Under the pieces are notes generated by a model. That model worked only from the letters and a program-made list of their open reading frames with translations. It did not search any database and was not told the DNA's origin. From Acidimicrobiia bacterium (GTDB lineage: Bacteria > Actinomycetota > Acidimicrobiia > UBA2766): 64,000 bases of DNA. This document shows, piece after piece, positions 1 through 61,442 of the stretch. Positions within the stretch are counted from its first letter, which is position 1, and each line of letters begins with the position of its first letter. The stretch covers positions 1 to 64,000 of the forward strand of contig JADZDR010000022.1 of assembly GCA_020850945.1 (NCBI GenBank), written 5' to 3'. A program made the translations under genes and the position numbers.

Positions 1-17
1 AGAGAGGACAGCCACGC

Positions 18-1148: not shown

Positions 1149-1155
1149 CGACCAC

Positions 1156-1443: not shown

Positions 1444-1444
1444 C

Positions 1445-1729
1445 TCAGGTCGGGGGTGTCTCCCACGGGTCGGCATCGCCGGCGCGCGGTGCCTCGGGCA
1501 CCACGGGCTCGAGGTCCGCCACGACACGCTCGATCTCGAACCTCGTGTCGGTGATCCGCGTCCGGCAGAAGGTGAGGAGTTCGGCGGCGCGGCGCACTCT
1601 CTCGGCGAGCCGGTCGACGTCGACGTCGTCGTGCTCGATCTCGGCGAGGATCTGCTCGAGTTCGGCAATCGCCTCCCCGTAGCCACGCGGAGTCGGCCCC
1701 GCCTCGAATGTGCCGTCCGTACCGCTCAT
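1445..1729 (-). CDS. xseB: Exodeoxyribonuclease VII small subunit
   Basis: Accessory subunit of exonuclease VII, which degrades single-stranded DNA in both directions. The 94-residue acidic helical protein contains the XseB pattern GYGEAIAELEQILAEIE followed by VDVDRLAERVRRAAELLTFCRTRI. Its ATG overlaps the xseA stop as ATGA (1726-1729), so it is translationally coupled and probably made together with the large subunit. Confidence 0.92.
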   Translation of the reverse strand: MSGTDGTFEAGPTPRGYGEAIAELEQILAEIEHDDVDVDRLAERVRRAAELLTFCRTRITDTRFEIERVVADLEPVVPEAPRAGDADPWETPPT

Positions 1730-3057
1730 CTCGCCTCCTCGTCCAGCACTACCTCCTGGACGACCGCCGTCACGCTACCTCCCTTGAGACGCATTGTGAT
1801 CCTGTCGCCGGTCTCGACGGATGCGGCCTCCACCACCACGCGGCCGTCGGGGGTGCGCACCATCGCCCATCCGCGTTGCGTGAGACGCTCGGGGTCCGCC
1901 ATCGTGATCGCACTCTGCATCGCGTCGACGCGCATCCGCGCCTGACCGAGGATGGCGCGTGCCTGACGTTCGAGCTGAGGTTGTACGGCACGAAGGATCG
2001 TGTCCTCTCGTGCCAGGTCGAGACGAGCCCTACCGGTGATGCCGGCCCACCGGTCGCCGAGACGCCGCTCCTGGCGGTCCGTCGCCTCACGCACTGCAAC
2101 AGCAAGCGCCCTGCCGGTCCGGGTGACATCGGTGTCCGCGGACCGCAAGGAAGCGTCGACGCGGCGGCCGATGCGACCGAACCCACCTGCGAGTCTCCCG
2201 AGGTACCCATCCACGGCCGCCACGAGGGCACGGGCGCACGCGGTCGGTGTCTTGTGGGCGTTGTGGGAAACTCGGTCGGCAATCGTCTCGTCGACCTCGT
2301 GGCCTATGCCTGTTATGACGGGAACGGGACACGTGGCAATTGCCCGTGCCACGGTCTCGGAATCGAACACCGCCAATTCGGTTCTCGCCCCACCGCCCCG
2401 CACGACGGCGATCACATCGGGTCGTTCGTCTCCCAAGACCCGCACGGCTGCCGCGATACGCCTCTCCGCGTCTCCTCCCTGCACGGGCGTGTGCAGGGCA
2501 CGCACACTGAAGCCGAAACCGGAGCCGCGCAGCTCGTGCTCGAAATCCGCCGCAGCCGCGCTCTGCGCCGACGTGACGAGCCCCACCCGGAGCGGACACG
2601 CCGGGAATCCGAGGCTGCTGTTCGCGTCCAGCAGCCCTTCGGTGCCGAGGCGGCGCAACACACGGTCACGATTCCTCGCGAAGTGGCCGAGTGTGTAGGC
2701 CGTGTCGATTCCGGTCATGGTGAGCTGGAGGCGGCCGCGGGGGCGGTAGACATCGACACGTCCCCGCAGACGCACCGCCATGCCGTCCTCGAGCTCGACC
2801 CGGTCCGAGTCGAGATCCCGCTGCACGCGAGTCCGGTGCGAGTCGAGGAGCACGACGGACAGGCGGGCATGACGGGCGGGATCGCGGGCATCGGGCTCCA
2901 CGAGGTCGAAGAAGAGGTTGCCACGGCCGCTGGCCTGGCTGAGGCCCCAGATCTCCCCCCCCACCCAGACTTCCGCGCGAAACGTGCGGTACAGTGCCTG
3001 TTGGATGCTGCGGTTCAACTCGTAGACGCCGTATGTGCGCTCGTCGGACTCCACCAT
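1726..3057 (-). CDS. xseA: Exodeoxyribonuclease VII large subunit
   Basis: Catalytic subunit of exonuclease VII. From the ATG at 3057 the product has 443 residues: an N-terminal OB-fold (TYGVYELNRSIQQAL, then VWVGGEIWGLSQASGRGNLFFDL) and the XseA nuclease core with AVVRGGGARTELAVFD, VPVITGIGHEVDETIAD and HKTPTACA. The frame is open further upstream (to 3198), but those residues are low-complexity and unlike XseA. A second possible start is ATG 3087, which has a slightly better purine-rich leader. It overlaps xseB by 4 nt. Confidence 0.92.
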   Translation of the reverse strand: MVESDERTYGVYELNRSIQQALYRTFRAEVWVGGEIWGLSQASGRGNLFFDLVEPDARDPARHARLSVVLLDSHRTRVQRDLDSDRVELEDGMAVRLRGRVDVYRPRGRLQLTMTGIDTAYTLGHFARNRDRVLRRLGTEGLLDANSSLGFPACPLRVGLVTSAQSAAAADFEHELRGSGFGFSVRALHTPVQGGDAERRIAAAVRVLGDERPDVIAVVRGGGARTELAVFDSETVARAIATCPVPVITGIGHEVDETIADRVSHNAHKTPTACARALVAAVDGYLGRLAGGFGRIGRRVDASLRSADTDVTRTGRALAVAVREATDRQERRLGDRWAGITGRARLDLAREDTILRAVQPQLERQARAILGQARMRVDAMQSAITMADPERLTQRGWAMVRTPDGRVVVEAASVETGDRITMRLKGGSVTAVVQEVVLDEEAR

Positions 3058-3233
3058 CCACACGAGGGTAAACCCGCGATGCGACATGCCCGGCCTGCAG
3101 GCAGGTACCCGGCCCGACGAAGCGAAGGTGTAGTGGTGGCAAACGCCTGCAGAGGTGATTCCTCCTGGTCTGCCGCGACCGGCGGGGAACGTGACCATGT
3201 TGGTCCCTGCGCGACTCTGTCAGGTGGGCCGGG

Positions 3234-4286
3234 ATGACGTCGAGAACGCGCCGCATCCTGGCCAACACCCTGATCGCCTGTGGCATCCTCGCGATCGCGC
3301 TCTGGCAGACAGGGAACTGGCTGCGATCCAGCATCCTCGACGAGGAGGGCTTCACGAGCTCGATTGCCGAGATGCTCGGGAATCCCACGATCCAGTCGGC
3401 GATCGCGGAGGCTCTCGCCACCCGCCTGAACGCCGACGGACTCCCCGGCGGCCAGGTCACGCCCGAAGTGCAGAGGGCGATGGAGCGGTTCGTGGCTTCG
3501 CCCGACTTCCAGTCCACTCTGTCGAAGTCGTTCGTCGCGATCCACGTCGCCGTGCTCGGCACAGCCCGGGCAGACGCCCCCGAAGCGATCGTCATCGACC
3601 TCGACGAGTATCAACCCGAGCTCGAACAGCTCTTGGCGAACATGGACCCACCCGCACCGAATGCGCTGCCGCCGGACGGGCTTGGCGTCGTACAGGTCCC
3701 CGTCGACTCCCTCCCGTCACTTGCCGGACAGGCGGAAGTCTTCAAGGCCATGCCGATCGTCGCGCTCGTCGTGGGCATCCTCCTCTTCGCCCTCGCCCTC
3801 ACGGTGACGAACGATCGACCCTCCTCCCTGATACGGATCGGGGTCGGCCTCATCATGATCACGATCATCCCCCTCCTGATTCGTGTGCTCGTGCCCAAGC
3901 TCGCCCTCGGCAAGGTCTCGGATACAACCGCCCGCGAGATCGGCGACACCGTACTCGGATCTCTCCTCGGCAGCCTCGTCACGACGGCCGTGACCGTGGC
4001 CGTGATCGGGGCTGTCTGTCTCGGGGCCGGGGTGGGACTCAAGTACTTCCTGCGCTGGAAGCAGGAACACGACTTCATGAAGGACGTGCCGGTCGCCGAC
4101 TACGATCCGTCGTCCGTCCCGTGGGAGGTGCAGCATCCTGGAGAGACGTACAGGATCGGACCGGCCGAACCCGCGAGGGTGCCGGCAGCGCCGTACCCCT
4201 CGACTCCACCGGCTCCACCGGCCTCCCCGCCGATGCCACCGTCCGGTGACGGGGGCGGCTGGGGTCAGGCCGGCCGCGGGTACTGA
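3234..4286 (+). CDS. Multi-spanning membrane protein, function unknown
   Basis: A 350-residue protein that I do not assign to a characterised family. It has an N-terminal hydrophobic segment (about residues 8-25) and an extracytoplasmic-looking domain of about 150 residues containing EGFTSSIAEMLGNPTIQSAI. Three more hydrophobic segments follow (about 175-192, 202-225 and 240-268), with a charged and then proline-rich cytoplasmic tail (PPAPPASPPMPP). The layout resembles large actinobacterial conserved membrane proteins of unknown role. The ATG at 3234 is divergent from xseA, with 176 nt between them that should hold both promoters. Confidence 0.8.
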   Translation: MTSRTRRILANTLIACGILAIALWQTGNWLRSSILDEEGFTSSIAEMLGNPTIQSAIAEALATRLNADGLPGGQVTPEVQRAMERFVASPDFQSTLSKSFVAIHVAVLGTARADAPEAIVIDLDEYQPELEQLLANMDPPAPNALPPDGLGVVQVPVDSLPSLAGQAEVFKAMPIVALVVGILLFALALTVTNDRPSSLIRIGVGLIMITIIPLLIRVLVPKLALGKVSDTTAREIGDTVLGSLLGSLVTTAVTVAVIGAVCLGAGVGLKYFLRWKQEHDFMKDVPVADYDPSSVPWEVQHPGETYRIGPAEPARVPAAPYPSTPPAPPASPPMPPSGDGGGWGQAGRGY

Positions 4287-4310
4287 GGGAGGCGGCGTGG
4301 TGACGCCTTC

Positions 4311-4988
4311 ATGACCTCCCCGGACCGCGAACGTGAGCATCTCACCTTGGCCACCCCCGACGGCGTGCACCTCGACGCTGTATGGACCGCCCCCACGAGC
4401 GCATGCAGTGTCGTCTGCGTGCTGTGCCATCCACACCCCGAACACGGCGGATCCATGCACAACCCGCTTCTCCTCACGCTCGAGGACGCTGTCTGCAGCC
4501 GAGGCGGGGCAGTCCTGCGCTTCGACTTCCGCGGTGTGGGTTGCAGCACGGGGTGGCACAGTGGTGGGCGTGACGAGGTCCTCGACGTCGCAGCCGCTGT
4601 GGGCACCGTGTTCGACCGTGCCCGAGGTGCTCGACTCGGTCTGGGTGGCTGGTCCTTCGGAGGCGGCGTGAGCTTTGCGTGGGTTCGAGCACACACACGT
4701 CCGCGTTACCCCGTCGACCTCAGGTGGTTCGGCGTGGCACCGGTCCTGGAGTTCGGCAGCGAGTCCCCGACTGGAGCTCCCTCGGCCGGAGTCCGCGACG
4801 AGGTGCCCCGCATGGCGATCGTGGGCTCGGCCGACCCCTTGGTCTCGACCGAGACGCTGCGTTCCCTCCTCGGACCCCGTGCCGAACTGGTCGTGCTCGA
4901 CGGTTGTGATCACTTCTTCGCCGGCGCCTGCGGCGTAGAGGCTGCGGACCACGTAGCCGAGTTCGTGACGGCCGATGTCCATCCGTAG
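4311..4988 (+). CDS. Alpha/beta hydrolase, dienelactone-hydrolase-like
   Basis: A 225-residue single-domain hydrolase. The oxyanion-side motif CHPHPEHGGSMHN is typical of the small alpha/beta hydrolases annotated as CocE/NonD-like or dienelactone-hydrolase-like. The nucleophile lies in GGWSFGGG (GxSxG type), and the C-terminal acid and His are in VVLDGCDHFFAG. The substrate cannot be inferred. Its last 14 nt overlap the start of the first crcB. Confidence 0.85.
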   Translation: MTSPDREREHLTLATPDGVHLDAVWTAPTSACSVVCVLCHPHPEHGGSMHNPLLLTLEDAVCSRGGAVLRFDFRGVGCSTGWHSGGRDEVLDVAAAVGTVFDRARGARLGLGGWSFGGGVSFAWVRAHTRPRYPVDLRWFGVAPVLEFGSESPTGAPSAGVRDEVPRMAIVGSADPLVSTETLRSLLGPRAELVVLDGCDHFFAGACGVEAADHVAEFVTADVHP

Positions 4989-5400
4989 GAGGTTCGAACG
5001 CGAGCACGTTGCCGGCCACCACCTCCACAGACTCACGCCCCGCGTCATCATGGGAGTTGCCCTCGGGGCTGCCGTTGGAGCCGAGCTGCGTTACCTCGTG
5101 CTCTCGAGCCTCGATTGGGGCTTGTGGCCGACACTCGCCGTGAACGTGGCGGGTTCCATGCTGCTCGGTGGACTTGCGGCCCGGAGCCGACGCAGGCGTA
5201 CACAAGTGCCACCCTGGCTGGGCGCGGGTCTCATCGGAGCCTTCACGACCTTTTCCACCTTCCTGCTCGACGTCTACGAGCTCGCAGAACGGGACGGGGT
5301 GGGGCTTGCCCTGGTGTTCGCCGCCTTCTCCCTCTCGGTTGGAATCGGCGCGACCGCACTCGTCCTCATGGCGGGTCGAGAAGGGGGGCAACGCGCGTGA
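4975..5400 (+). CDS. crcB: Fluoride ion channel CrcB, first of a tandem pair
   Basis: Dual-topology Fluc-type channel that exports fluoride. The 141-residue product has four hydrophobic segments and the CrcB signatures GVALGAAVGAELRYLV, NVAGSMLLGG and GLIGAFTTFSTFLLD (the pore-lining TTFSTF stretch). The N-terminus is about 25 residues longer than usual, so the true start may lie downstream of ATG 4975. It overlaps the next crcB by GTGA. No fluoride riboswitch was recognised upstream. Tandem crcB genes usually form a heterodimeric channel. Confidence 0.92.
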   Translation: MSIRRRFEREHVAGHHLHRLTPRVIMGVALGAAVGAELRYLVLSSLDWGLWPTLAVNVAGSMLLGGLAARSRRRRTQVPPWLGAGLIGAFTTFSTFLLDVYELAERDGVGLALVFAAFSLSVGIGATALVLMAGREGGQRA

Positions 5401-5783
5401 TCCACGTGGCAGTCCTCGCGGGTGGTGCCCTGGGTGGCCTTCTGCGCTTCGTCACGACTGCGGTATCGCAGCGCCTCATCGACGAAGGCGACGCTCTTCC
5501 GTGGTGGACACTCCTGGCCAACCTGACGGGAAGCTTCGTGCTCGGGCTGCTTGGCGGCTCGCTCGCGCACGGCCTGGTGCTCTCCCCATCGGTAGTCGCA
5601 GGTATCGGCGCAGGCTTCGCAGGAGGCCTCACGACCTTCTCGACCTTCAGTGTCGAAACAGTCCTCCTCGGACGCGAGCGAAGCGTGTACGCGGCGGCCG
5701 CCTACGTCGTGCTCAGCTTCACGTTGGGGCTCCTCGCGATCGTCGGCGGGATCGCGGCCGGGGCCGGGATCGCCGGAATGTGA
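5397..5783 (+). CDS. crcB: Fluoride ion channel CrcB, second of a tandem pair
   Basis: Partner channel subunit of 128 residues, read from GTG 5397, which overlaps the stop of the first crcB (GTGA). It shows the family motifs GGALGGLLRFVTT, NLTGSFVLGLLGG and GFAGGLTTFSTFSVE, and four membrane segments. A longer open frame from 5115 exists, but it runs antiphase through the first crcB and has no CrcB features. The two subunits are only moderately alike, as expected for a heteromeric pair with opposite topologies. Confidence 0.92.
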   Translation: MIHVAVLAGGALGGLLRFVTTAVSQRLIDEGDALPWWTLLANLTGSFVLGLLGGSLAHGLVLSPSVVAGIGAGFAGGLTTFSTFSVETVLLGRERSVYAAAAYVVLSFTLGLLAIVGGIAAGAGIAGM

Positions 5784-5834
5784 AGGGACCGCCAGCCTGG
5801 CTTAGCCTGCCGGAATGCCTGGGGGAGCTTGCCC

Positions 5835-6920
5835 GTGACCGCATCGAGACGTAGAAGGGTCGGAGTCCCCGCATCTCTCGGCGCGGTGGGAGCCGTGGCC
5901 GGTGCCCTCGGACTCAAGGCGTGGTACGGCTCCTTCGACTGGTGCACCACCGAGGACGAGGTGTGCTCCGTGCCGACCGAGGACGGCTGGCACATCGTGC
6001 TGCACAGGTACCGGCCGACACGGCGGACTCACAGCCATCCGCTCGTCATCGGTCACGGTTTCGCCGGCAGCCATTACCTGCACGACCTCGGGGCGGGACT
6101 CGGCATGGCCCGCTTCCTTGCCGACCACGGCTGGGAGACCTTCACGGTCGACCTGCGCGGTCGAGGTGACAGCTTCCCGGACAGGGGGGACCGGTCGAGT
6201 CTCCAATGGAGCTTCGACGACCTCGCCCTCACGGATCTGCCGAGCGCTGCCGCTGCAGCATGTGAGGCCACTGGAGCGGAGTCCTGCCTGTGGGTCGGTC
6301 ACGAGATGAGCGGCCAGGCCTTGTACGCGGCCGCCGTGTCCGGACGGGCGGAGAACGTCCACGCAGCCGTCACGATCGGTGCCCCGGCCGTGACACCCCC
6401 CTATGCGGCCGTGCCGGGCGTGACCGCACCACCGCGGGGGCGCAAGGCGGGACGTGTACCGTTCCGGGCAGGTGCACGTCTGGCGGGCCCGGTTCTGGCC
6501 TTCACGCGCAGCAGGATGTTGGAGTCGTCCTTCCGGGCAGGCATTGCCGACCCTCGTGCCGTCGCGCGCTATTTCCGAAACGGTGTCCCCGACGAGTCCG
6601 AGTTGCTCGCCGAGCAGTTCGCGGCGTGGATCGAGTCGGCAGCGATGACTAGTGACGACGGCTCCCTCGTCTACTCGGATCACCTCGACGCGGTCACGCT
6701 GCCGGTCCTCGTCGTAGCCGCCGCAGCCGATCTCCAGCGACCGCCCGAGGCCGTCGAAGCCACCTATCGGGCTCTCGGCAGCAGTGACAAGACATTCCTC
6801 CGGGCAGGAATCGAGGGTGGGATGTCAGTCGACTTCGGCCACGACGACGTCGTGACCAGCATCCCCGCCACGCGGGAGGTCCTCCCGCGGCTCGAGGCGT
6901 GGCTCTCGGCACACGACTGA
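5835..6920 (+). CDS. Alpha/beta-hydrolase-fold protein with atypical nucleophile elbow
   Basis: A 361-residue protein with an N-terminal hydrophobic segment (VGVPASLGAVGAVAGALGL), possibly a signal or anchor, then an alpha/beta hydrolase core: VIGHGFAGSHYLHD near the oxyanion site and DLRGRGDSFP after strand 4. The nucleophile elbow reads VGHEMSGQ, where most hydrolases have GHSMGG, so the expected serine is replaced by glutamate. A late Asp (VAAAADLQRP) and His (DFGHDDV) remain. GTG 5835 is preferred because a GGGGGAG lies about 8 nt upstream; TTG 5829 in the same frame is the alternative. It could be a non-catalytic member or use unusual chemistry. Confidence 0.8.
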   Translation: MTASRRRRVGVPASLGAVGAVAGALGLKAWYGSFDWCTTEDEVCSVPTEDGWHIVLHRYRPTRRTHSHPLVIGHGFAGSHYLHDLGAGLGMARFLADHGWETFTVDLRGRGDSFPDRGDRSSLQWSFDDLALTDLPSAAAAACEATGAESCLWVGHEMSGQALYAAAVSGRAENVHAAVTIGAPAVTPPYAAVPGVTAPPRGRKAGRVPFRAGARLAGPVLAFTRSRMLESSFRAGIADPRAVARYFRNGVPDESELLAEQFAAWIESAAMTSDDGSLVYSDHLDAVTLPVLVVAAAADLQRPPEAVEATYRALGSSDKTFLRAGIEGGMSVDFGHDDVVTSIPATREVLPRLEAWLSAHD

Positions 6921-6942
6921 CATGACACCCCCACCCCCCTCC

Positions 6943-6989
6943 ACGTGGGCGTATCCAACCACGCTGACCGTGGTTCAGTACGCCCACGT
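6943..6989. repeat. Hairpin repeat, copy 1 of 4
   Basis: A 47-nt imperfect palindrome: an outer 11-bp arm (ACGTGGGCGTA / TACGCCCACGT), a 3x3 internal loop (TCC/CAG), an inner arm AACCAC / GTGGTT extended by a G-C pair, and a 5-nt loop CTGAC. It lies just after the stop of the hydrolase at 6920. Copies 2, 3 and 4 share exactly the same lengths and outer sequence. It could act as a bidirectional terminator between convergent genes or as a REP-like dispersed element. Confidence 0.9.
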
Positions 6990-7003
6990 AACGGCTCCCC
7001 CCC

Positions 7004-7050
7004 ACGTGGGCGTAACCAACCACACTGGCTGTGGTTCAACACGCCCACGT
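7004..7050. repeat. Hairpin repeat, copy 2 of 4
   Basis: The second 47-nt hairpin starts 61 nt after copy 1. The outer arm is ACGTGGGCGTA / CACGCCCACGT (one outer-arm change), the internal loop ACC/CAA, the inner arm AACCAC / GTGGTT closed by an A-T pair, and the loop CTGGC. It sits between the convergent hydrolase gene and gcvT, 24 nt from the gcvT stop codon. Confidence 0.9.
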
Positions 7051-7074
7051 AACGGCTCCCGTTCACAGGGAGGG

Positions 7075-8160
7075 TCAGGGGAGGTCGACGAAAGGAGGGT
7101 CGACGACCTCGACGGGGAGATGCCGACCGCGGAGCTCTACCGACGCGGGCTGGGCGTCCCGCGCGACGAGCGCGAGCGCAATACCGCGCTCGAGGAGCGG
7201 CGAGTAGCCACCGCTCGTCACGACACCCACAGCCTGTGCCGCGGTGTCGAGGACGGGGCTTGCGTCGCGCAGGGGGCGTCGGTCCCGTCCCACGAGTCCG
7301 ACAAGCCTCCGCGGCACACCGTCCTCCTTCTGGCGGCGCAGAGCGGCGGCCCCGGGGAAGTCGGCGGAGTCGAGCGCCACGGTCCAGCCGAGACCGGCTT
7401 CGAGCGGCGAGATGTCAGGCGAGATGTCGTGCCCGTGCAGGGGATAGCCCATCTCGAGACGCAGCGTGTCGCGAGCACCGAGCCCGGCAGGCTTGCCGCC
7501 CACGTCGGCGAGCGGTCCCCCCAGCGCATCCCAGATACCCACGATCGTGTCGTTCGGGGCGACGATCTCGATTCCCGGCGATCCCGTGTATCCGGTCCCC
7601 GAGACGATGCCCTGCCCGAGACGCGACTCGAAGCGTGCGACGCCGAACCGTGCCGGCGCCGCGTCGGTGAGGACATCCTCCACGACATCACTCCAGCGCG
7701 GCCCCTGCAGGGCGAGGATCCCCCATGCAGAGCTCAGATCCGTGACTTCCACACCGTCGCTCCGCTCCGCCTCCGAGTCCAGGATCGCCACGACCGTGGT
7801 GACGTTCGCGGCATTCGGCACCACCATCCACTCGTCCTCCGCCACGTGGCTGATGATGAGGTCGTCCACGACACCGCCTCTGTCGTTGAGGAGCATCGTG
7901 TACTGCGCCCGGCCCGGCCCCACCTTCGTCACGTCGTTCGTGAGGGTGCGCTGGAGGAGATCCGCCGTGTCGGGGCCGCGCACGAAGACCGTGCCCATGT
8001 GGCCCACGTCGAAGAGGCCGCACGCCTCGCGTACGGCAAGATGCTCGGCTACGGTGCCCTCGTACTGGATCGGCATACGCCAGCCGGCGAACGGAACCAT
8101 CTTCGCGCCGAGGGCGACGTGCCGGCTGCCGAGCACCGTCTCACGCAGAACTTCGGACAT
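7075..8160 (-). CDS. gcvT: Aminomethyltransferase (glycine cleavage T protein)
   Basis: Tetrahydrofolate-dependent T protein of the glycine cleavage system. From ATG 8160 the product has 361 residues. Conserved T-protein segments are visible: KMVPFAGWRMPIQYEGTVAEHLAVREACGLFDVGHMG, VDDLIISH, GYTGSPGIEI and LGARDTLRLEMGYPLHGHDI, plus a C-terminal OB-like barrel (GYSPLLERGIALALV). The frame is open to 8232 but the extra residues are unlike GcvT. No glycine riboswitch was seen upstream. gcvH lies about 4.7 kb away on the same strand; gcvP is not in the window. Confidence 0.94.
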   Translation of the reverse strand: MSEVLRETVLGSRHVALGAKMVPFAGWRMPIQYEGTVAEHLAVREACGLFDVGHMGTVFVRGPDTADLLQRTLTNDVTKVGPGRAQYTMLLNDRGGVVDDLIISHVAEDEWMVVPNAANVTTVVAILDSEAERSDGVEVTDLSSAWGILALQGPRWSDVVEDVLTDAAPARFGVARFESRLGQGIVSGTGYTGSPGIEIVAPNDTIVGIWDALGGPLADVGGKPAGLGARDTLRLEMGYPLHGHDISPDISPLEAGLGWTVALDSADFPGAAALRRQKEDGVPRRLVGLVGRDRRPLRDASPVLDTAAQAVGVVTSGGYSPLLERGIALALVARDAQPASVELRGRHLPVEVVDPPFVDLP

Positions 8161-8191
8161 GGGGGCGGAGCCTAGCGGCGGACCCCGGTGC

Positions 8192-8554
8192 TCATGTGAG
8201 TCCGTACTTCGTGATGAGCGCCTCGAAGTCACGCTGATAAAAGAGCTTGCAGTTGACCTCTGGGTACAGCTCGGCGAGACGGCGCAGCTTCTTGTTCTTG
8301 CGCCGCACCAGCTTCTGGTTCATCGTCGTGATCTCGATGTAGAGGTCCTGATCGGGTAGGTAGAAGTCGGGCGCGAACGCCTCCTTCGGGTTGCCGTCGT
8401 CGTCACGGCTGAAGACGAACGTGCGCGGTTCGTACTCCCAGCGCACCTTGTAGAAGTCGAGGAGCTCGGCGAACTGCTGTTCCGACCCGTGTTGGAAGCG
8501 GACGGTGCGGGACGGCAGGTCACGTGCAGCCCCGTCTCCCGCTTCCCCGTTCAG
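8192..8554 (-). CDS. Conserved actinobacterial protein with probable CTG start
   Basis: A 120-residue protein. Its conserved core runs RTVRFQHGSEQQFAELLDF, then WEYEPRTF, APDFYLPDQDLYIEITTMNQ and VRRKNKKLRRLAELYP. The D-F-Y-L-P-D plus E-I/L-T-T pattern resembles small restriction-endonuclease-fold proteins found beside hpt in actinobacteria, but the function is unknown. No ATG, GTG or TTG covers the full conserved region; the first is GTG 8446, inside it. CTG 8554 has GGGAG 8 nt upstream and overlaps the MerR stop codon, so I take it as the start. An alternative is CTG 8518. Confidence 0.75.
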   Translation of the reverse strand: MNGEAGDGAARDLPSRTVRFQHGSEQQFAELLDFYKVRWEYEPRTFVFSRDDDGNPKEAFAPDFYLPDQDLYIEITTMNQKLVRRKNKKLRRLAELYPEVNCKLFYQRDFEALITKYGLT

Positions 8555-9048
8555 GGCATTATCTCCCGCACGTCGGCACCGTCGTCGCTCTCGGGACGGA
8601 TCACCTCGATCGACCCCGACAGCTCGGCATGGATCGGATCGAGCGCGAAGGCGAAGACGACCTGGCCCGCATTGAGGAGGTCGAGGATCTCGTCGTTGGA
8701 CCGGCTCGCGAAGACCTTCTGGCCGTCGGAGAAGATCCGCAGGCCGGCAGGTTCCTCGTCCAACTGCTCGCGGATGTACGCGAAGGCACGTTCGATGCGC
8801 TGCAGCGAAAGGCCGGCCTCCCGCAGGCTCTTGATGATCTTGAGCTCCACGAGATCCTGGTACGAGTAGCGACGTTGCGAACCCGAGCCCGACGCAGATG
8901 CGACGGACGGCAGGACGAGCCCCTTGCGGGCCCAGTGGTCGAGCTGGCGGTAGCTGATACCGGCGAGCTTGGCTGCCTCCGGCCCGCCAAACGACTGCTT
9001 GACCGCGCCGTCATCGCGCATCTGTCTGCGCCTCTCGCCGTCGCTCAC
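8551..9048 (-). CDS. MerR-family transcriptional regulator
   Basis: A 165-residue regulator whose winged-helix region (about residues 22-95) reads AAKLAGISYRQLDHWARKGLVLPS, then RRYSYQDLVELKIIKSLREAGLSLQRIERAF. The C-terminal part (DGQKVFASRSNDEILDLLNAGQVVFAFALDPI) is a conserved actinobacterial extension without metal-binding cysteines, so it is not a classical metal-sensing MerR. In actinobacteria this gene often lies near ftsR, the FHA gene and the bifunctional-nuclease gene, as here. The stop codon overlaps the next gene's CTG start. Confidence 0.88.
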   Translation of the reverse strand: MSDGERRRQMRDDGAVKQSFGGPEAAKLAGISYRQLDHWARKGLVLPSVASASGSGSQRRYSYQDLVELKIIKSLREAGLSLQRIERAFAYIREQLDEEPAGLRIFSDGQKVFASRSNDEILDLLNAGQVVFAFALDPIHAELSGSIEVIRPESDDGADVREIMP

Positions 9049-9181
9049 GCCGTCTCCTCATTCGGTCTCCTCGCTCGGTCTCCCCGCGAGCTCTCTGCTG
9101 TGCACACACACGCCCCGACAGGAGTTACACGAGTGAGATTCCAACGTAGTCTCTCTGTCCGAGGGGGTCAACGGATTGGTC

Positions 9182-9658
9182 TCAGCCTTCGAAGTCCTCC
9201 GGGCTCACCTCGTCGAGGAACTCGCGGAACTTCTCGACCTCCGCCTCCTCCTCGTCGTCCGTGATGATGATCGCCGCCTCGTCGAGCACGTCCTCCGCCG
9301 CGAAGATCGCCGTGCCGATACGCACGGCGAGGGCAATCGCATCCGACGGTCGTGCCGAGACCACGATCTCCTCTCCGCCACGTTCGAGGACGAGGTCGGC
9401 GTAGAACGTGCCATCGCGCAGCTCGACGATGACAACACGGCGCACGGTCACGTCGAGAGCCGCGATCACGTCCCGGAAAAGGTCGTGTGTCAGGGGCCGC
9501 GGCGTGGACATGCCCTGGAGGGCGAAGGCGATCGCCTGCGCTTCGACACCGCCGATCCAGATCGGCAGGAAGCGCTCCCCTTCGGCTTCGCGGAGCAGCA
9601 CTATCGGCTGGTTGGTGGGGAGCTCGACTCGGACACCTACGAGCGACATCTCGATCAC
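9182..9658 (-). CDS. Bifunctional-nuclease-domain (DUF151) protein
   Basis: A 158-residue protein of the BFN/DUF151 family. Recognisable segments are VGVRVELPTNQPIVLLREAEGERFLPIWIGGVEAQAIAFALQG, TFYADLVL and VSARPSDAIALAVRIGTAIFAAEDVLDEA, followed by a short acidic tail. Plant and some bacterial members have DNase/RNase activity; the activity here is inferred. GTG 9658 is chosen because GGGAGG precedes it by about 7-8 nt; ATG 9649 is the alternative, and the longer frame to 9778 is not conserved. It lies between a MerR gene and hpt. Confidence 0.87.
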   Translation of the reverse strand: MIEMSLVGVRVELPTNQPIVLLREAEGERFLPIWIGGVEAQAIAFALQGMSTPRPLTHDLFRDVIAALDVTVRRVVIVELRDGTFYADLVLERGGEEIVVSARPSDAIALAVRIGTAIFAAEDVLDEAAIIITDDEEEAEVEKFREFLDEVSPEDFEG

Positions 9659-9701
9659 GCAGTGCACCTCCCTCGGCCGACCGCTGGAGCGTATCACAGC
9701 G

Positions 9702-10310
9702 TCATCGCGACTGATTCGGGCCGCCGGCGTCAGGAAAGAAGGACCCCACGTAGCGCTGTGGCACGGCCACGAGGGCATTGACGTCGGTCACGGAGTAGAG
9801 GGAGTCGAGGTTGCGGTACACCTCGTCGTGATCGAGCCCGTAGCCGATCACGAAGGTGTCGGGGATCGAGAAGCCGCGGTAGGCGATGTCGAGATCCACG
9901 ATCCGGCGCACATCCTTGTCGAAGAGGGCACACACCTCGAGGGAGGCGGGCCGTCGCGCCTCGAGCACCCGCATCAGGTACTGGAGGGTGAGGCCGGTGT
10001 CGACGATGTCCTCGACCACGACCACGTCGCGACCTTCGATGTTCCCGGACAGATCCTGCTCGATGCGCACCACACCCGATGCTCCACCCGCCCCGAAGGA
10101 CGAGATCGACATGAAGTCGACCTCACAGTCGATCTCGAGATGCCGCGCCAGGTCGGCGAGGAAGAGTGTCGCGCCCTTGAGCACGGACACGAGGACAGGG
10201 CATCTGCCCGCGTAGTCCCGTGTCAGGTCAGCCCCGAGCTCGGCCACACGCTGCGACAGGGTCGCGGCGTCGATGAGCAGTTCGAGGCCCTCTGGTGTCA
10301 CGCCACTCAT
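9702..10310 (-). CDS. hpt: Hypoxanthine phosphoribosyltransferase
   Basis: Purine salvage enzyme converting hypoxanthine (and guanine) with PRPP to nucleotides. The 202-residue product contains the PRPP-binding loop VVVVEDIVDTGLTLQYL, the flexible-loop region MSISSFGAGG and the purine-binding FVIGYGLDHDEVYRNL. Length is at the upper end of the usual range. ATG 10310 overlaps the stop of the carboxypeptidase gene (ATGA). The frame is open further upstream but without family similarity. Confidence 0.94.
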   Translation of the reverse strand: MSGVTPEGLELLIDAATLSQRVAELGADLTRDYAGRCPVLVSVLKGATLFLADLARHLEIDCEVDFMSISSFGAGGASGVVRIEQDLSGNIEGRDVVVVEDIVDTGLTLQYLMRVLEARRPASLEVCALFDKDVRRIVDLDIAYRGFSIPDTFVIGYGLDHDEVYRNLDSLYSVTDVNALVAVPQRYVGSFFPDAGGPNQSR

Positions 10311-11566
10311 TCCACCTCCACGGATGCGAGCTCGGTGCCGTCGAGCACGGCCACGACGCGTCCCTTCGCGACGTCTGTCTCGACGTCCCGGGCACGGCCG
10401 CGGGGTACCGTGACGACCAGCGGCGCGGCTGTGCGTCCTCTCACCCCGTCCACACGCGCGCCGGTGGGTAGCACTTCGACACTCGAGTAGTTGCGGAACG
10501 CCCACTCGAGCAGCGCCATGTCGTCAGCGGTCGGATCGCCGGACGCGAGGGAGACCGCGATGAAAGTCTGCCCGTCTCGCCGCGCCGCACCGACGAGGCA
10601 GTTCCCGGCCTGCCTCGTACCCCCGGTCTTGACACCGATCCCGCCGGGGAGCTCCCGGAGGAGTCTGTTCTTGTTCGTGGCTACCCGCGGCCCTTCGTGG
10701 CCGGGCCAGGCGAAGGCGATCTCCGGAGTCCGCACGAGCTCGGCGAGGAGCGGGTCGGCAAGGGCGGCACGCGCAAGGACAGCGAGATCGTACGCAGTCG
10801 ACACCTGTCCCTCCTGATCGAGCCCGTGCGCGTTCACGACGTGCGTGTCCCGCGCGCCGAGCTCCGCCGCGACCCAGGTCGCGAGGCGGCCGAACCCCTC
10901 CTCTGTTCCACCGACGTGGAACGAGAGTGCGGCGGCGGCGTCGTTCGCCGATCCCACCAGCATCGCCCCGAGGAGGTCCTTCACAGACCACACCTCACCC
11001 GGATCGAGGTAGATCTCGCGCTCTCCCACCGCGGCCGCGGCTTCAACCACGGTCACAGCCTCGGAGTCGTCTGCGAAACGGCGCACGGTGAGCGCAGTGA
11101 GGATCTTGATCGTGGACGCGACGGGAGCCGGTTCGTGCTCGTTCATGCCCCACAGGACCGCACCTGTCGTCGCGTCCACGATGACGGCACGCCGCGCCGT
11201 GGCAGCCGGTGGAGGCTCGGGCACAGGTACGGCGCGTTCGGTCGACAACGGTACGGCCGGAGCGGGCCGGTCGCGCCACACGACAGGCCTGCCGATCTCG
11301 GGGATGGACGGCGTGAACGGAACCGGTTCCGCGAGGTGCATCTCATCGGTGGCGAGGCCCGCCTCACCGGCCGTGAAAGCGGCCGGCTCGCTCGTCCCTC
11401 CGTGACCGTGAAGCACGACGAGTCCCGTGGCCACCGTCGCGATGATGGCGGCGAGGAGGGCGACACGGACGGCGATGTGCGCTCCAGACGGCCGCGGTGT
11501 CGCCCGATGCCTTCCGCGTCGGCGAGAGGTTCGCGACCCCTGAATGCGTGTCTGCGTCACGTTCAT
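10307..11566 (-). CDS. D-alanyl-D-alanine carboxypeptidase (PBP type, S11-like)
   Basis: Penicillin-binding-protein-type peptidase that trims peptidoglycan stem peptides outside the membrane. From ATG 11566 there are 419 residues: a basic N-terminus, one membrane segment (about 31-51), a proline-rich linker, then the catalytic domain with the three active-site motifs STIK (151-154), SAN (206-208) and KTG (313-315). It follows the ftsR-like gene by 7 nt and overlaps hpt, so it is probably part of the garA-ftsR operon. DacB/DacC-type naming is uncertain. Confidence 0.9.
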   Translation of the reverse strand: MNVTQTRIQGSRTSRRRGRHRATPRPSGAHIAVRVALLAAIIATVATGLVVLHGHGGTSEPAAFTAGEAGLATDEMHLAEPVPFTPSIPEIGRPVVWRDRPAPAVPLSTERAVPVPEPPPAATARRAVIVDATTGAVLWGMNEHEPAPVASTIKILTALTVRRFADDSEAVTVVEAAAAVGEREIYLDPGEVWSVKDLLGAMLVGSANDAAAALSFHVGGTEEGFGRLATWVAAELGARDTHVVNAHGLDQEGQVSTAYDLAVLARAALADPLLAELVRTPEIAFAWPGHEGPRVATNKNRLLRELPGGIGVKTGGTRQAGNCLVGAARRDGQTFIAVSLASGDPTADDMALLEWAFRNYSSVEVLPTGARVDGVRGRTAAPLVVTVPRGRARDVETDVAKGRVVAVLDGTELASVEVE

Positions 11567-11573
11567 GGCTACT

Positions 11574-12299
11574 TCACGGTGAGCGGCTCCGCAGATACTG
11601 CACCAAGAGCGCCTGATGGAGGTGTTTTCCGAGGGTGGACAGCTCGACGAGCGCCTTCTGCGTGCGGACCGCGGCGTCCGCACCCGCCTGCGCGGCGAGG
11701 GGGGCGACAGCCCGGTCGAAGAGGTCGGACTCGCGATCGGCGGCCTGGCGGAAGATGCGCAGATGCCGCGCGCGGATGCCGTATGTCCCGAACTTGTGGG
11801 CGATCTTGGCTATCACGAGGTCGGTCTCGTCGTAGACCGCCTCGTCCGTCGACGTGTCCGGCGAGACGAGACCGAACGCCACGAGCTCGTCGACCATGGC
11901 TTCGGGCACATTCGCGGCCTCGGCGAGTCCCCCCCGATCGAGACGCACCGGCCGCAGGGGTGTCCCGAGATCCGGCTTCTCTGCGGGAGCCTCGTCACGG
12001 CTCACCGGCCCCTCCGTGGCCTCGTCGTCGAGCTCACCTCGTTCCCACTGCTCGACACGGGCCTTGATCACCTTCAGGGGCAGATACCGGTCCCGCTGTT
12101 CGGAGAGCACGAAGCGGAGTCTCTCGATGTCCGCGTGTGTGAACTTCCTGTAGCCCGACGGTGTGCGTTCGGGGGAGATGAGCCCCTGCGATTCGAGATA
12201 GCGGATCTTGGAGATGGAGATGTCGGGGAACTCGGGCCGGAGCAGCGTGAGGACCTCTCCGATGGTGCGGCGCCCGGGCTCTCGTGTCGCGTTCACCAC
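11574..12299 (-). CDS. ftsR: FtsR-like MerR-family regulator
   Basis: A 241-residue MerR-like protein. The N-terminal winged helix reads TIGEVLTLLRPEFPDISISKIRYLESQGLISPERTPSGYRKFTHADIERLRFVL, which matches the FtsR type. A linker and a helical C-terminal domain (VAKIAHKFGTYGIRARHLRIFRQAADRE) follow. In Corynebacterium, FtsR activates the cell-division gene ftsZ. The gcvH-FHA-ftsR gene order is conserved in actinobacteria, which supports the assignment; the target here is inferred. Start is GTG 12299 or the next codon, GTG 12296. Confidence 0.85.
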   Translation of the reverse strand: MVNATREPGRRTIGEVLTLLRPEFPDISISKIRYLESQGLISPERTPSGYRKFTHADIERLRFVLSEQRDRYLPLKVIKARVEQWERGELDDEATEGPVSRDEAPAEKPDLGTPLRPVRLDRGGLAEAANVPEAMVDELVAFGLVSPDTSTDEAVYDETDLVIAKIAHKFGTYGIRARHLRIFRQAADRESDLFDRAVAPLAAQAGADAAVRTQKALVELSTLGKHLHQALLVQYLRSRSP

Positions 12300-12312
12300 G
12301 AGCCCACCCCAG

Positions 12313-12774: not shown

Positions 12775-12827
12775 CGGGCAAGCCTACGCGAACGGGGGGT
12801 TTGGCGGTCACAGGAGCGGACCGGGAG

Positions 12828-13217: not shown

Positions 13218-13256
13218 CGATCCTCCGTCGGCAGCCCGCCCACGATAGTGGGTGGA

Positions 13257-16381: not shown

Positions 16382-16478
16382 CTGCCACACGATAGGCAAG
16401 CCGTCGGCATGCGTCGGCCTCCGACCGCAGACGCGGGTATACGACCGTTCCGCGGGAGCGACCACTAGATTGCGTCGG

Positions 16479-56984: not shown

Positions 56985-58352
56985 ATGGACCGTCTCAGCC
57001 CGCTCGATGCCTCGTTCCTGTTCGTCGAGGGTGCAGGGACTCCCATGCACATCGCGTGCGTGGCCGTCTGTGCCGGACCACCTCCGTCCTATGACGAGAT
57101 CTCGGCGAGCATCGCCGCGAAGCTGGCGTTCATACCCCGCTACCGCCAGAAGGTGCGCTTCGTCCCCTTCGGGCTCATGCGGCCCGTGTGGGTCGACGAC
57201 CCGCACTTCAACCTCGACTACCACCTCCGCCACACCGCTCTGCCGCCCCCGGGCGGGCGAGACGAGCTGCGTGCGCTAGTCGGACGTGTCATGGCGCAAC
57301 ACCTCGACCGCCACAAGCCACTCTGGGAGGTGTGGGTCGTCGAAGGCCTCGGGGACGACACATGGGCGATCCTCACGAAGGTTCACCACTGCATGGTCGA
57401 CGGGATCGCGGGGAGTGACCTCATGGCCGTCCTGTTCGATCTCACGCCGGATGCACCCCGAGCGGAACCGGGGAGTTGGGAACCAGACACTGAGCCGGAC
57501 GATGCCCGACTCCTCCTCGAGGCAGTGCGCGATATCGGCTTCCTCCCCCGTGAACAGATCCGTGTGCTCCGCACCCTCTCTCGCATGCCCGCCAAGACAC
57601 TCGCCGAGGTGGGCAAGGGTGTCCGGAACTGGCTCCGCGTGGTGGAACGCACTCCGCCCACGTCACTCACGGGGCCGTCCGGGCCGCATCGCCGCTGGGA
57701 CTTCGCTCACGTGTCGCTCCCCCGCGTGAAGGACATAGCCCACGCGGCGGGCGTCACGGTCAACGATGTCGTCATGACGGCCGTGACGAAGGGCTTCCGC
57801 GATCTCCTCCTCGCGCGGGACGAGGATCCGACTGAGGCCCGGATCCGATCGTTCGTCCCTGTGTCGCTGCGCCGCCCGGACGAGCGCAACCGCCTCGACA
57901 ACCGCGTGGCGGGCATGATCGCTGTCCTGCCCGTTGACGTGGACGATCCCGTGGGGCGCCTCGACCGCGTCCGTGAGCAGATGGGAGCGCTGAAGCAGTC
58001 CGGGGAGCCCCGTGCCGCCGCGCTCGTGGAGGAGCTCGCCGTGTTCGCTCCACCCGCCATCCTCGCGTGGGGGGAGAGAGCGGCAGCACGCCTCGGGCAG
58101 GGGCCGATGACGACCGTGACGACCAACGTTCCCGGACCCCAGCTCCCCCTGTACGTCTGCGGGCGTCGCCTCGTCGAGCTGTATCCCTACGTCGGGATCG
58201 GGGGTGGGACCCGTCTCAACGTCGCGGTCTTCTCCTACGACGGGCACCTCGGCTTCGGCATCACAGGCGACTGGGAGTCGGCCCCTGACATCGGGATCCT
58301 CACGCGAGGAATCACGTCTGCTGTCGACGAGCTCGAGTCGGCGCTCTTGTAG
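56985..58352 (+). CDS. Wax ester synthase / diacylglycerol acyltransferase
   Basis: Bifunctional acyltransferase making triacylglycerol and wax esters for storage. The 455-residue product has the active site HHCMVDG (134-140), the N-terminal SPLDASFLFVE, RPVWVDDPHFNLDYHLR, and the C-terminal family block MTTVTTNVPGPQLPLYVCGRRLVELYPYVGI. Length is typical. The following DUF3866 gene converges and overlaps by 41 nt. Confidence 0.93.
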   Translation: MDRLSPLDASFLFVEGAGTPMHIACVAVCAGPPPSYDEISASIAAKLAFIPRYRQKVRFVPFGLMRPVWVDDPHFNLDYHLRHTALPPPGGRDELRALVGRVMAQHLDRHKPLWEVWVVEGLGDDTWAILTKVHHCMVDGIAGSDLMAVLFDLTPDAPRAEPGSWEPDTEPDDARLLLEAVRDIGFLPREQIRVLRTLSRMPAKTLAEVGKGVRNWLRVVERTPPTSLTGPSGPHRRWDFAHVSLPRVKDIAHAAGVTVNDVVMTAVTKGFRDLLLARDEDPTEARIRSFVPVSLRRPDERNRLDNRVAGMIAVLPVDVDDPVGRLDRVREQMGALKQSGEPRAAALVEELAVFAPPAILAWGERAAARLGQGPMTTVTTNVPGPQLPLYVCGRRLVELYPYVGIGGGTRLNVAVFSYDGHLGFGITGDWESAPDIGILTRGITSAVDELESALL

Positions 58353-59421
58353 CGGCGGCGGCATGTGCCCCCGCTGCCGCCGCCGTGAGCCAGAAGACGG
58401 GGTCGGCGCTGACGGGACGGCCCATCGACGTCGGCTCGATGCCGCCCGCATCGAGCAGGGAGAGGGCGGCACCTGGGTCGGCCGTCACGATGCTGTGCAC
58501 ACCCTCGAGCGTGGTGAGCTGCTCTCGCATCGCGGCCTCGCGGACGGGGTCGCCTTGCGGGAGGACGATCTCGGCGAGGGGGTCGAGGGGCGGCGTCGCC
58601 CGGAGGCTCTCGAGGGAGTGGTGGCTGATCCCCCTGTGTCTCGTGCGCGAGTCAGCGTCCGAGCAGCGCAGGCAGGCGATCGGCACACCGCCGAGTGCGG
58701 CCGTCTCCGTGAGGACGTGGGAGACCTCGCGGGCGGTCGTCGCCGTCGACAGGCCGGTGCCCACGATCCCCGGGCCCATCGCGACGACGGCGACGTCGGC
58801 TCCGGCATGCCTCGCCGCGAGCAGTGCAGATGCGACCGTGACCGCTTCCAGGTCGCCTCCGAACGCGTGACCTGCCGTCACGGTCATGTCGACGAAACCG
58901 GCGGCCGTGAGGTCCGCGCACAGATCGGACAAGGCGAGGGGCAGGGCGGCACCGTCGGTCATCACGTAGGCGACGACCAGGTCGCCTCCTGCGGACGACG
59001 CGCGGATTCCGGCAGTCACAGCCGCGAGCTGGGAATGGAGGCTTGCCGCCACGACCGGCATCCCGCCCAGATGCTCCTCCTGCATGTGAGTGTGCAGGGG
59101 CGAGGCAGCCTCGGAGGCGACGAGGACGTCTGTCTGCAGCGAGGTGTATCGCAGCTTCATGATGTGGCCACCGGAGAGGGAGCTGAACTCACGGCGGCCG
59201 TTGACCCAGTGCACGACGTGCCAGCCACCTGTACCGAGTCCGAGGTCGACGGCTGTCGTGTTGCACACGACCTCGTCCCCGACCTCGACGCTGCCGATGA
59301 GGTCGGGGTAGTTGACGGCGGCGCTGGATTCGCCGGCGCCGTCGAGCACGACTCTCACACGCTGCAGGCCGCGCCGCTCCGAGATGATCTCGCTCACCCG
59401 ACCCGTGTGGAAGCTCGGCAC
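58312..59421 (-). CDS. DUF3866-family protein
   Basis: A 369-residue actinobacterial protein of DUF3866, starting at GTG 59421. Characteristic segments are HIMKLRYTSLQTDVLVASEAASPLH, VVAYVMTDGAALPLALSDLCADLTAAGF, VTAGHAFGGDLEAVTVASALLAARHAGADVAVVAMGPGIVGTG and LRCSDADSRTRHRGISHHSLESL. Function unknown; often near proteasome genes in this phylum. Downstream of pafA on the same strand. Confidence 0.88.
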   Translation of the reverse strand: MPSFHTGRVSEIISERRGLQRVRVVLDGAGESSAAVNYPDLIGSVEVGDEVVCNTTAVDLGLGTGGWHVVHWVNGRREFSSLSGGHIMKLRYTSLQTDVLVASEAASPLHTHMQEEHLGGMPVVAASLHSQLAAVTAGIRASSAGGDLVVAYVMTDGAALPLALSDLCADLTAAGFVDMTVTAGHAFGGDLEAVTVASALLAARHAGADVAVVAMGPGIVGTGLSTATTAREVSHVLTETAALGGVPIACLRCSDADSRTRHRGISHHSLESLRATPPLDPLAEIVLPQGDPVREAAMREQLTTLEGVHSIVTADPGAALSLLDAGGIEPTSMGRPVSADPVFWLTAAAAGAHAAAATRAPTRARRQQT

Positions 59422-59457: not shown

Positions 59458-59504
59458 ACGTGGGCGTACTCAACCACGACAATTGTGGTTCAGTACGCCC
59501 ACGT
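59458..59504. repeat. Hairpin repeat, copy 3 of 4
   Basis: 47 nt with the same architecture as the 6.9-kb pair: ACGTGGGCGTA / TACGCCCACGT outer arm, CTC/CAG internal loop, AACCAC/GTGGTT inner arm closed by a G-T pair, loop ACAAT. Downstream of pafA. Confidence 0.9.
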
Positions 59505-59528
59505 AAGTCGGGCAACAGCCAGAAGGTC

Positions 59529-59575
59529 ACGTGGGCGTATCCAACCACACCAGATGTGGTTCAGTACGCCCACGT
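59529..59575. repeat. Hairpin repeat, copy 4 of 4
   Basis: 47 nt, 71 nt after copy 3. Outer arm ACGTGGGCGTA / TACGCCCACGT, internal loop TCC/CAG, inner arm AACCAC/GTGGTT closed by A-T, loop CCAGA. It lies 22 nt beyond the pafA stop codon and may form part of its transcript end. Confidence 0.9.
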
Positions 59576-59596: not shown

Positions 59597-60952
59597 TCAG
59601 AGGGATGCGATGAGGCGTTCCACACGCTCGTCGTGGGCGCGGAAGGGATCCTTGCAGAGGACCGTGCGCTGCGCCTGGTCGTTCAGCTTGAGGTGGACCC
59701 AGTCCACCGTGAAGTCGCGTCGACGTTCCTTGGCCCGCTTGATGAACTCGCCCCGCAGACGGGCCCGGGTCGTCTGCGGGGGCGCGAGGACGGCCTCCTC
59801 GATGTCGGCGTCGTGCACGACACGGTCGACGAGACCCTTGCGCTCGAGCAGGTAGTAGATCCCGCGTTTGCGGTTCACGTCGTGATATGCCAGATCCATC
59901 ATCGCGATCTTGGGATCGAGCAGGTTCAGGCCATCCCGCTCACGGGCAGCCTCGATGATGCGGTGCTTCGCCACCCAGTCGCACTCCCGATAGAGCGAGA
60001 ACGGATCCTTCTCGAGGCCCCGCACGACGTGCTCCCACATACCCAACGCCTTCTCCTCCAACGGCCCGAGTCCCCGATGGTCCGCGTACTTGAGGGCACG
60101 TTCGAGATACTCGATCTGGATGTCGAGCGCCGACGCCTCACGACCACTCGCCATGCGGATCTTGCGCCGGCACGTGATGTCGTGACTGATCTCGCGGATC
60201 GCGCGGATCGGGTTCTCGAGCGTCATGTCCCGCATGACCGTGTCCTCTTCGAGCATCCGCAAGAGGATGGAGGTTGATCCGACCTTCAGGAACGTGACGT
60301 ACTCGCTCATGTTGGAGTCACCGACGATCACGTGCAGGCGCCGAAAGCGCTCGGCGTCGCTGTGCGGCTCGTCGCGGGTGTTGATGATCGGCCTGCTCCG
60401 CGTCGTAGCTGACGACACACCCTCCCAGATGTGCTCGGCCCGCTGGCTCAGGCAGAACATGGCGCCACGCGCGGTCTGGAGGACCTTGCCCGCTCCCGCC
60501 CACACCTGGCGTGTCACGAGGTACGGGATGAGGGTGTCGGCATACTGCTGGAACTCGCCGTGCCGGCTCATGAGGTAGTTCTCGTGGCACCCGTAGGAGT
60601 TCCCGGCGGAGTCCGTGTTGTTCTTGAAGAGGTAGATCTCGCCTCGGATCCCCTCCTCCTGGAGCCGGGCCTCGGCGCTTGCGAGGAGGCGCTCGAGGAT
60701 GCGTTCCCCCGCCTTGTCGTGGCACACGAGGTCGTAGATGGAGTCGCACTCGGGGGTTGCGTACTCGGGGTGGCTCCCCACATCCAGGTAGAGGCGGGCA
60801 CCGTTCTCCAGGAATACGTTCGACGAGCGACCCCACGACACGACGCGCCGGACGAGGTAGCGGGCGACCTCGTCCGGGCTCAGCCTGCGTTGCCCGCGCA
60901 GCGTGCACGTGACGCCGTACTCGTTCTCCAGGCCGAAGATCCGCCGTTCCAA
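59597..60952 (-). CDS. pafA: Pup--protein ligase PafA
   Basis: ATP-dependent ligase that attaches Pup through its C-terminal Glu to substrate lysines. The 451-residue product, read from TTG 60952, begins [20 protein letters not shown], the PafA hallmark with catalytic Glu in FGLENEYG. Further conserved parts: [53 protein letters not shown] and [18 protein letters not shown]. The larger frame to 61543 has no PafA similarity. Weak leader GGACC before TTG. Confidence 0.95.
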
Positions 60953-61063
60953 TGCGGGTCCAGTGTAGGTGTCGCCCGGGCAGGGCGACCGCGGTGTCCG
61001 GGATCGGGACTCGGTGAGCCCCACGTCGGGGTGTCGTGGGGTGGGCGCCGCTACGATGAATCC

Positions 61064-61414
61064 ATGCTCAAGGCCGTGATCCTGCTGCGGCGCCGGGCCG
61101 GTGTCTCGCCGGACGAGTTCGCGATGCACTTCCGGGTGCACATGCGTCCCCTGATCGGAAGCCTCCCCGGCGTGTCGCGAATCGTCGTCTCCGACGCGAT
61201 CGCAGGCCCGGGCGGGACACCCGCCTACGACGGAATGGCCGAGTTCTGGTTCGAGAGCATCGAGGCCGTGCAGCGCCTCGTCGAATCGGCAGAGGCACGT
61301 GAGATCGAGGCACGCCTCGCCGATTTCGTCGACATGGACACCTACGAGACCTTCCTCACGGTCGAGCACGAGGTCGCCGTAGATCCCATGCCCCGCACCC
61401 CGACGCAGGCATGA
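61064..61414 (+). CDS. EthD-like dimeric alpha-beta barrel protein
   Basis: A 116-residue protein from ATG 61064. The EthD-like pattern is [43 protein letters not shown], followed by [19 protein letters not shown]. This fold occurs in degradation-linked and monooxygenase accessory proteins. The role is unknown. It lies divergently between pafA and prcA, and this placement inside a proteasome cluster is probably incidental. Confidence 0.85.
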
Positions 61415-61442
61415 CATCCACCTGCGCCTGATTCGGCCCTCG

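Follow-up and report, generated by a model that had tools for sequence, protein, structure and literature searches.

The window, by which we mean the whole 64,000-nucleotide stretch of contig JADZDR010000022.1 that was analysed, contains two tandem pairs of a palindrome that is a member of a new genus-restricted, REP-like family, unusual in that its tandem copies are set in phase with the helix. As to what these elements do, we give roughly an even chance to the reading that they are genus-restricted REP-like palindromes serving as phased double-stranded DNA sites of a putative protein behind genes. Below, the host genome is G000 and the sister is G001, the only other species of the genus examined.

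Copies 1 to 4 (Table 1) belong to one 47-nt palindrome family, and each has a stem of about 20 bp that is interrupted near positions 12–14. The first-pass annotation had described two 47-nt hairpins between a hydrolase gene and gcvT, with terminal loops CTGAC (copy 1) and CTGGC (copy 2) closed by a G-C and an A-T pair, and had placed two more copies near 59.5 kb. The hairpins are real, their loops and closing pairs are as claimed, and the second pair was located. Two other details did not hold. The outer arm was said to be an identical 11-bp sequence, but one base is changed in the right outer arm of copy 2, where the outer stem is 10 bp, extended to 11 by a G.U on the minus strand. The 3x3 internal loop was said to be preserved, but its sequence differs (TCC/CAG in copy 1, ACC/CAA in copy 2), and in other copies these columns read CTC/GAG (paired), CTC/CAG, TCC/GAG and others. 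Compared with dinucleotide shuffles, the fold of copy 1 has a z of -6.8 on the plus strand and -7.2 on the minus strand, and that of copy 2 has -4.3 and -5.5. The terminal ACGT of the element is paired in the fold. The spacer of the first pair is repeated beyond copy 2, so the duplicated unit is the element plus its spacer. Rfam had no match to the palindromes; its sole match in the window is a tRNA at 17155-17229.

Table 1. Palindrome copies, spacers and neighbouring genes in the window.
Feature	Position	Strand	Remarks
Palindrome copy 1	6943..6989	none	A-arm first on +: ACGTGGGCGTATCCAACCAC...
Spacer, copies 1/2	6990..7003		14 nt, locus-specific; start-to-start 61
Palindrome copy 2	7004..7050	none	single outer-arm base changed
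Spacer repeat beyond copy 2	7051..7064		AACGGCTCCCGTTC vs AACGGCTCCCCCCC; read from sequence
Palindrome copy 3	59458..59504	none	
Spacer, copies 3/4	59505..59528		24 nt; start-to-start 71 = 61 + one helical turn
Palindrome copy 4	59529..59575	none	
Alpha/beta hydrolase gene	5829..6920	+	Pfam PF12146/PF00561; stop 22 nt before copy 1
gcvT (aminomethyltransferase)	7075..8232	-	Pfam PF01571/PF08669; stop 24 nt from copy 2; start at 8232 from longest ORF, at 8160 in our gene calling
DUF3866 gene	58312..59421	-	Pfam PF12982; start 36 nt from copy 3
Pup-ligase family gene	59597..61417	-	Pfam PF03136; stop 21 nt from copy 4

The first-pass annotation had proposed a whole-genome search for further members, and these are far above chance. 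The exact pattern GTGGGCGT-N20-45-ACGCCCAC has 53 matches in the genome and one for the reversed control, and a longer pattern with at most three mismatches has 66 matches and none in the control. A covariance model gave 130 matches, which are 65 copies found on both strands, each spanning all 43 model positions. There are 65–66 copies in the host genome at 42 loci; the stretches around all 65 were retrieved and read, and the copies group into 42 clusters. Their consensus (65 copies) is ACGTGGGCGTA[CT][TC]CAACCAC-N7-GTGGTTSAGTACGCCCACGT. Each copy is about 47 bp and has two arms, A (..ATCCARNCAC) and B (..AYTGARNCAC), both beginning with ACGTGGGCG. The length was 47 nt in 65 of 65 host copies and in 57 of 57 sister copies, all scanned at 47 nt.

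The copies typically lie 10–50 nt past stop codons, including between convergent genes. The 42 host loci comprise 16 convergent, 24 co-directional and 2 divergent gene pairs, and the 45 sister clusters that were fetched comprise 19, 20 and 5, with one unknown; the background in the same stretches (412 gene pairs) is 77, 267 and 68. The fetched sister stretches contain 57 copies, compared with 83 counted genome-wide. At co-directional loci, the copy is closer to the upstream stop than to the downstream start in 39 of 44 cases, as read from the context rows. Genes were called with our own codon model, which is approximate, and a few copies seem to run into the end of a gene. The polarity of the copies is random relative to the direction of transcription, with 17 A-first and 19 B-first copies in the host and 10 and 16 in the sister.

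Among the genomes of 60 relatives (host included), the covariance model was positive only in the host and the sister. A search of 84,980 named species for the 47-nt frame found only Actinobacteria bacterium ATB1, apparently the sister; the window's own record may have been excluded from that scan. We also tried a generic word, CGTGGGCG-N25-33-CGCCCACG, on 296 genomes of the class. It occurs 54 times in G000, 16 times in G001 and 1–3 times in each of 39 others, close to the 0–2 per genome of the control column. We therefore rejected presence in other genera: 41 of the 296 genomes match, but those outside the genus are near the control, and the inner arms are not shared by the sequences listed for them. 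The pattern is thus not above chance in the other 294 class genomes tried. G002 and G003 have no such hairpin at their gcvT and Pup-ligase loci. Searches of viral contigs, plasmids and phages gave no match, and carriage by any of these was rejected. We found no Y1 (RAYT) transposase (PF01797, E 0.01) in any of the four family genomes (G000–G003), while the control genomes were positive in 6 of 14 cases, and mobility by RAYTs was rejected on that basis. A literature search, which was not exhaustive, found no description of this palindrome family.

The sister has the same element in a changed dialect. The pattern ACGTGGGCGGAT-N23-ATCCGCCCACGT with at most three mismatches finds 83 copies there and none in the control. 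The 47-nt length, the outer ACGTGGGCG and the common loop ACAG are unchanged, and the difference between the arms is kept (A TCCARNCAC, B YTGARNCAC), while virtually every copy reads GGAT in its two arms where the host has GTAC. We searched G001 for the C-terminal ends of 29 genes next to host copies and also compared the adjoining proteins with the element stretches. Of the 22 orthologs found, three carry the element at the corresponding gene end (L096, L143 and L147, with L096 coming from the adjacent-protein comparison) and 19 have none. Three loci known beforehand and outside the 29-gene test, C2/C483, gcvT and the Pup-ligase locus, bring the shared loci to 6 of 25, and the aroC-side locus (L061/L020) would make seven of 26; the count omits ten clusters that had no suitable adjacent gene, the aroC-side ones included. 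By chance we would expect about 1 of 25, a rough figure from about 65 loci over a guessed 1,700 or so non-operonic ends. With 6 of 25 tested loci shared, most copies are dispensable or young.

The proteins that adjoin the shared positions have diverged, mostly to about 50–90% identity. At C2/C483 the flanks of host and sister stay recognisably alike until the element's first base, with differing dialects. Copies at six of the seven shared loci have the same polarity in both species, although at two of these, L052 and L061, one copy is nearly symmetric; at gcvT the polarity is opposite. Syntenic sites lacking the element are present in the sister at several places; at L077/L153 there is a 10-nt gap between convergent genes where the host has a tandem pair. 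The neighbours of one host locus, L052 (G000:C22:160235), sit on two sister contigs (L096 and L098), each beside elements, which suggests that a rearrangement may have taken place at element sites.

The spacing of tandem copies follows the DNA helix. Start-to-start spacings in the host are 61 (n = 15), 62 (4), 71 (1) and 72 (3), and in the sister 62 (6), 72 (2), 73 (1), 83 (2) and 94 (1); overall the classes are 60–62, 71–73, 83, 91/94 and 104, which step by about 10.6 bp. For the phase test we took 33 loci with one spacing each and scored the ten above the 61–62 mode. All ten are within 1.1 nt of 61.4+10.5k, and none of 1,000,000 random sets was as good. A scan of periods from 6 to 16 put the best at 10.8, reached by none of 20,000 null sets. 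Six spacings found later were 62, 62, 60, 71, 91 and 104, the last measured to a 48-nt copy. The three non-modal ones among them (71, 91 and 104) alone gave P = 0.028 at 10.5 bp, with 91 off by about 2 bp. All 13 non-modal spacings together have a best period of 10.6, again reached by none of 20,000 null sets; the phase rests on these 13 loci, of which five are exactly 72, and on about four independent classes if spacings are inherited with the unit.

The spacers are common only at their ends (AA.. and ..CC). Over the eight central positions, identity between loci is 0.34, compared with 0.30 from composition. Because these middles show no relationship from locus to locus, a shared spacer sequence does not by itself explain the spacing. 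We considered spacer descent and rejected it: its spread was significant (P 0.0) under an arm-based orientation but not when spacers were oriented by their ends, and the arm-oriented signal arises because at some loci the flanks and the arms differ in polarity. A helical spacing series with unrelated spacers points to protein-bound double-stranded DNA. Such phased spacing is what cooperative protein sites on double-stranded DNA have, with the caveats here of common descent and one misfit.

Within a species, the two arms of a copy do not change together. We took one copy per locus, exchanged right arms between copies and counted Watson-Crick pairs. The host has 753, compared with 750.7 ± 4.3 after swapping (P 0.34), and the sister 692, compared with 695.0 ± 5.8 (P 0.73). 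In a covariation count of 35 copies, 84.6% were paired compared with 84.4% in shuffles, and the score was matched by 92 of 500 shuffles. Neither arm swaps nor covariation score found compensatory base changes between copies above chance in either genome. The first-pass annotation had taken the G-C to A-T exchange as compensating and as a sign of selection for structure. The exchange is there in copies 1 and 2, but over all copies this pair (pair 21) covaries at chance level (P 0.32), and the argument for selected structure is not supported, because arms pair no better than swapped arms. We rejected selection for RNA structure within species, as the arms are without covariation in both genomes. 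Conservation of pairing in related species stands insofar as the palindrome persists in the sister, but covariation within species is absent. Symmetric change appears only when the two species are compared (GTAC in both host arms, GGAT in both sister arms), and a dyad-symmetric DNA site explains this as well as a hairpin does.

Published repeats resemble the family in part. According to excerpts of Di Nocera 2013 (PMC3733652), REPs of the GTAG and CGTC super-families are dispersed, species-specific palindromes with paired copies and hairpin potential that occur between convergent or unidirectional genes, near the 3' ends of the neighbouring ORFs. The 47-nt family is like them in its dispersal, species specificity, position 3' of genes, paired copies and rarity between divergent genes, and like the CGTC REPs in having no dedicated transposase. 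In the same excerpts, however, REPs are 20–40 bp long, carry an unpaired GTAG or CGTC end tag and are mainly inverted dimers, whereas our elements are 47 nt with an interrupted stem of about 21 bp, have no such tag, and form head-to-tail tandems at spacings in a series of about 10.6 bp. The first base after ACGT is A in 29, G in 27 and C in 9 host copies (n = 65), and C in 32, G in 14 and A in 11 sister copies (n = 57). The host here is actinobacterial, and the word "actinobacteria" is absent from the text of that paper (PMC3733652). REPINs, in excerpts of PMC3116915, are inverted doublets of REPs proposed to be moved by RAYTs; as in our family, some of their tandem repeats include flanking sequence and their excision leaves scars, but they are tied to RAYTs, and Y1_Tnp is missing from the four family genomes here. 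For Actinobacteria, excerpts of PMC8355165 describe U-less hairpins for M. tuberculosis and state that termination behind gyrA of M. smegmatis is better with two hairpins in tandem. These are stable hairpins, single or tandem, shortly past stops with no U-tract, as here; the difference is that our copies have a common sequence and arms without covariation. The family is filed as REP-like and not as REP because the defining tag and length fail and the Y1 transposase is missing. The first-pass suggestion of a short element that is mobile or functional, like a REP or a terminator, is supported, as the copies lie dispersed in unrelated places, at gene 3' ends, in a species-specific form.

A protein site on double-stranded DNA predicts the combination seen here: a conserved sequence whose arms do not covary, no dependence on the direction of transcription, and helical phase. 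If an RNA hairpin were the working part, one would instead expect covariation and no phase. In our proposed mechanism, copies would settle right behind stop codons, sparing promoters and coding sequence, and tandem copies would arise by local duplication of the element plus spacer. Tandems would be kept, or made, at distances that place the copies on one face of the helix, where a sequence-specific protein may bind the double-stranded site and neighbouring copies may be bound together. The protein's changing specificity, or turnover by copying, could explain the genome-wide change of dialect. The strong hairpin, the bound protein or both might limit read-through past gene ends in both directions. 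A more specific version seems to us rather unlikely: that a fast-evolving DNA-binding protein marks or seals gene 3' ends, acts cooperatively on one face, and either prevents read-through or serves as a nucleoid anchor, with the dialect (GTAC/GGAT) co-evolving and positions partly inherited.

It is possible, although we doubt it, that the copies are bidirectional terminators or mRNA 3'-end stabilisers; the RNA hairpin would then be what is selected, tandems would terminate better, and a spacer of 14–15 nt would suit RNA polymerase. The copies are GC-rich hairpins shortly past stop codons (10–50 nt) and between convergent genes, with very stable folds on both strands, as this explanation would have it. 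No U-tract follows the hairpin in the host (the 12 flank bases are about 11% T with the A-arm first and 18% with the B-arm first), and U-tract terminators in positions 1-20000 of the window are at chance (4 found, 4.3 in shuffles), so the host may not use them. Because U-less and tandem hairpins are reported as terminators in mycobacteria (excerpts of PMC8355165) and U-tract hairpins are at chance here, the explanation keeps some weight. Against it stand the missing covariation, the 19 of 22 orthologous sister gene ends without an element, and the phase, as unpaired RNA spacers need no steps of 10–11 nt. A terminator hairpin also requires no common sequence, and the arms here are nearly invariant. 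G.U pairs are barely or not enriched on the transcript strand compared with the antisense strand (36 vs 32 in the host, 54 vs 39 in the sister); we rejected a strand-specific RNA role because copy polarity and G.U pairs are independent of transcription.

Purely selfish or neutral REP-like DNA spread by a putative transposase, in which the phase would mirror the nucleoprotein complex at work during tandem copying and no function in the cell, is in our judgement unlikely. It would account for the species-specific consensus, the positions unshared with the sister, element-free syntenic sites such as the gap at L077/L153, remnants of the form ACGT-14 nt-ACGT (below), and tandem units that include flanks, as REPINs have in excerpts of PMC3116915. 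It fits poorly with the lack of a Y1 (RAYT) transposase and with some positions and most polarities being kept between species despite diverged adjacent proteins. We regard it as very improbable that these are recognition words, for DNA uptake or another purpose, which pair up by chance as inverted repeats. A short word with species-specific dialects and inverted pairs behind genes would suit that idea, but single arms are not in excess in the window, and the DNA uptake word was rejected on this count: of 14 GTGGGCGT, 8 are within the four copies, leaving 6 where 4.8 are expected.

The double-stranded site with a putative protein has difficulties of its own. Wobble-type mismatches are strongly one-sided by polarity, which a symmetric site alone does not predict. 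The sister's gcvT copy has the opposite polarity, the spacing of 91 is a misfit, and few loci are shared. For REP-like repeats behind genes, a lack of arm covariation together with helical phase would separate an RNA hairpin from a double-stranded DNA site by sequence alone. Phase without covariation makes the binding protein the target to seek, and the change of dialect at shared positions is a natural two-species test of co-evolution.

Around the arrays we also saw what appear to be remnants. ACGT is enriched 14–17 nt outside arrays, with 15 cases where about 3.7 would be expected. Two loci have, in front of the outlying ACGT, a spacer that matches the inner one at 13/14 positions, as though an entire hairpin had been lost between the ACGT repeats at its ends. 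To the right of the copy at L051 (G000:C22:128584) there is a 16-nt tandem repeat, ACGTGGATGGAGGGCC, without a hairpin, as if ACGT plus spacer were able to multiply alone. At L053 (G000:C26:6278), a shortened 24-nt palindrome, ACGTGGGTTCGGCCGCCCCCACGT, lies 61 nt after the copy, which is the usual tandem distance, and is probably a deletion derivative. The sister has a 48-nt copy at G001:C156:2025-2072, with arms of mixed dialect (GCGTAT / GCGGAT), 104 nt from its neighbour. CpG transitions in the sister are strand-asymmetric by polarity: G8->A on the B side occurs in 25/57 copies and G9->A in the A-arm in 10/57, while the opposite changes are rare (C8->T in the A-arm 4, C9->T on the B side 0; n = 57). 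C->T changes there are nearly always on the B-first strand, and they leave G.T wobbles.
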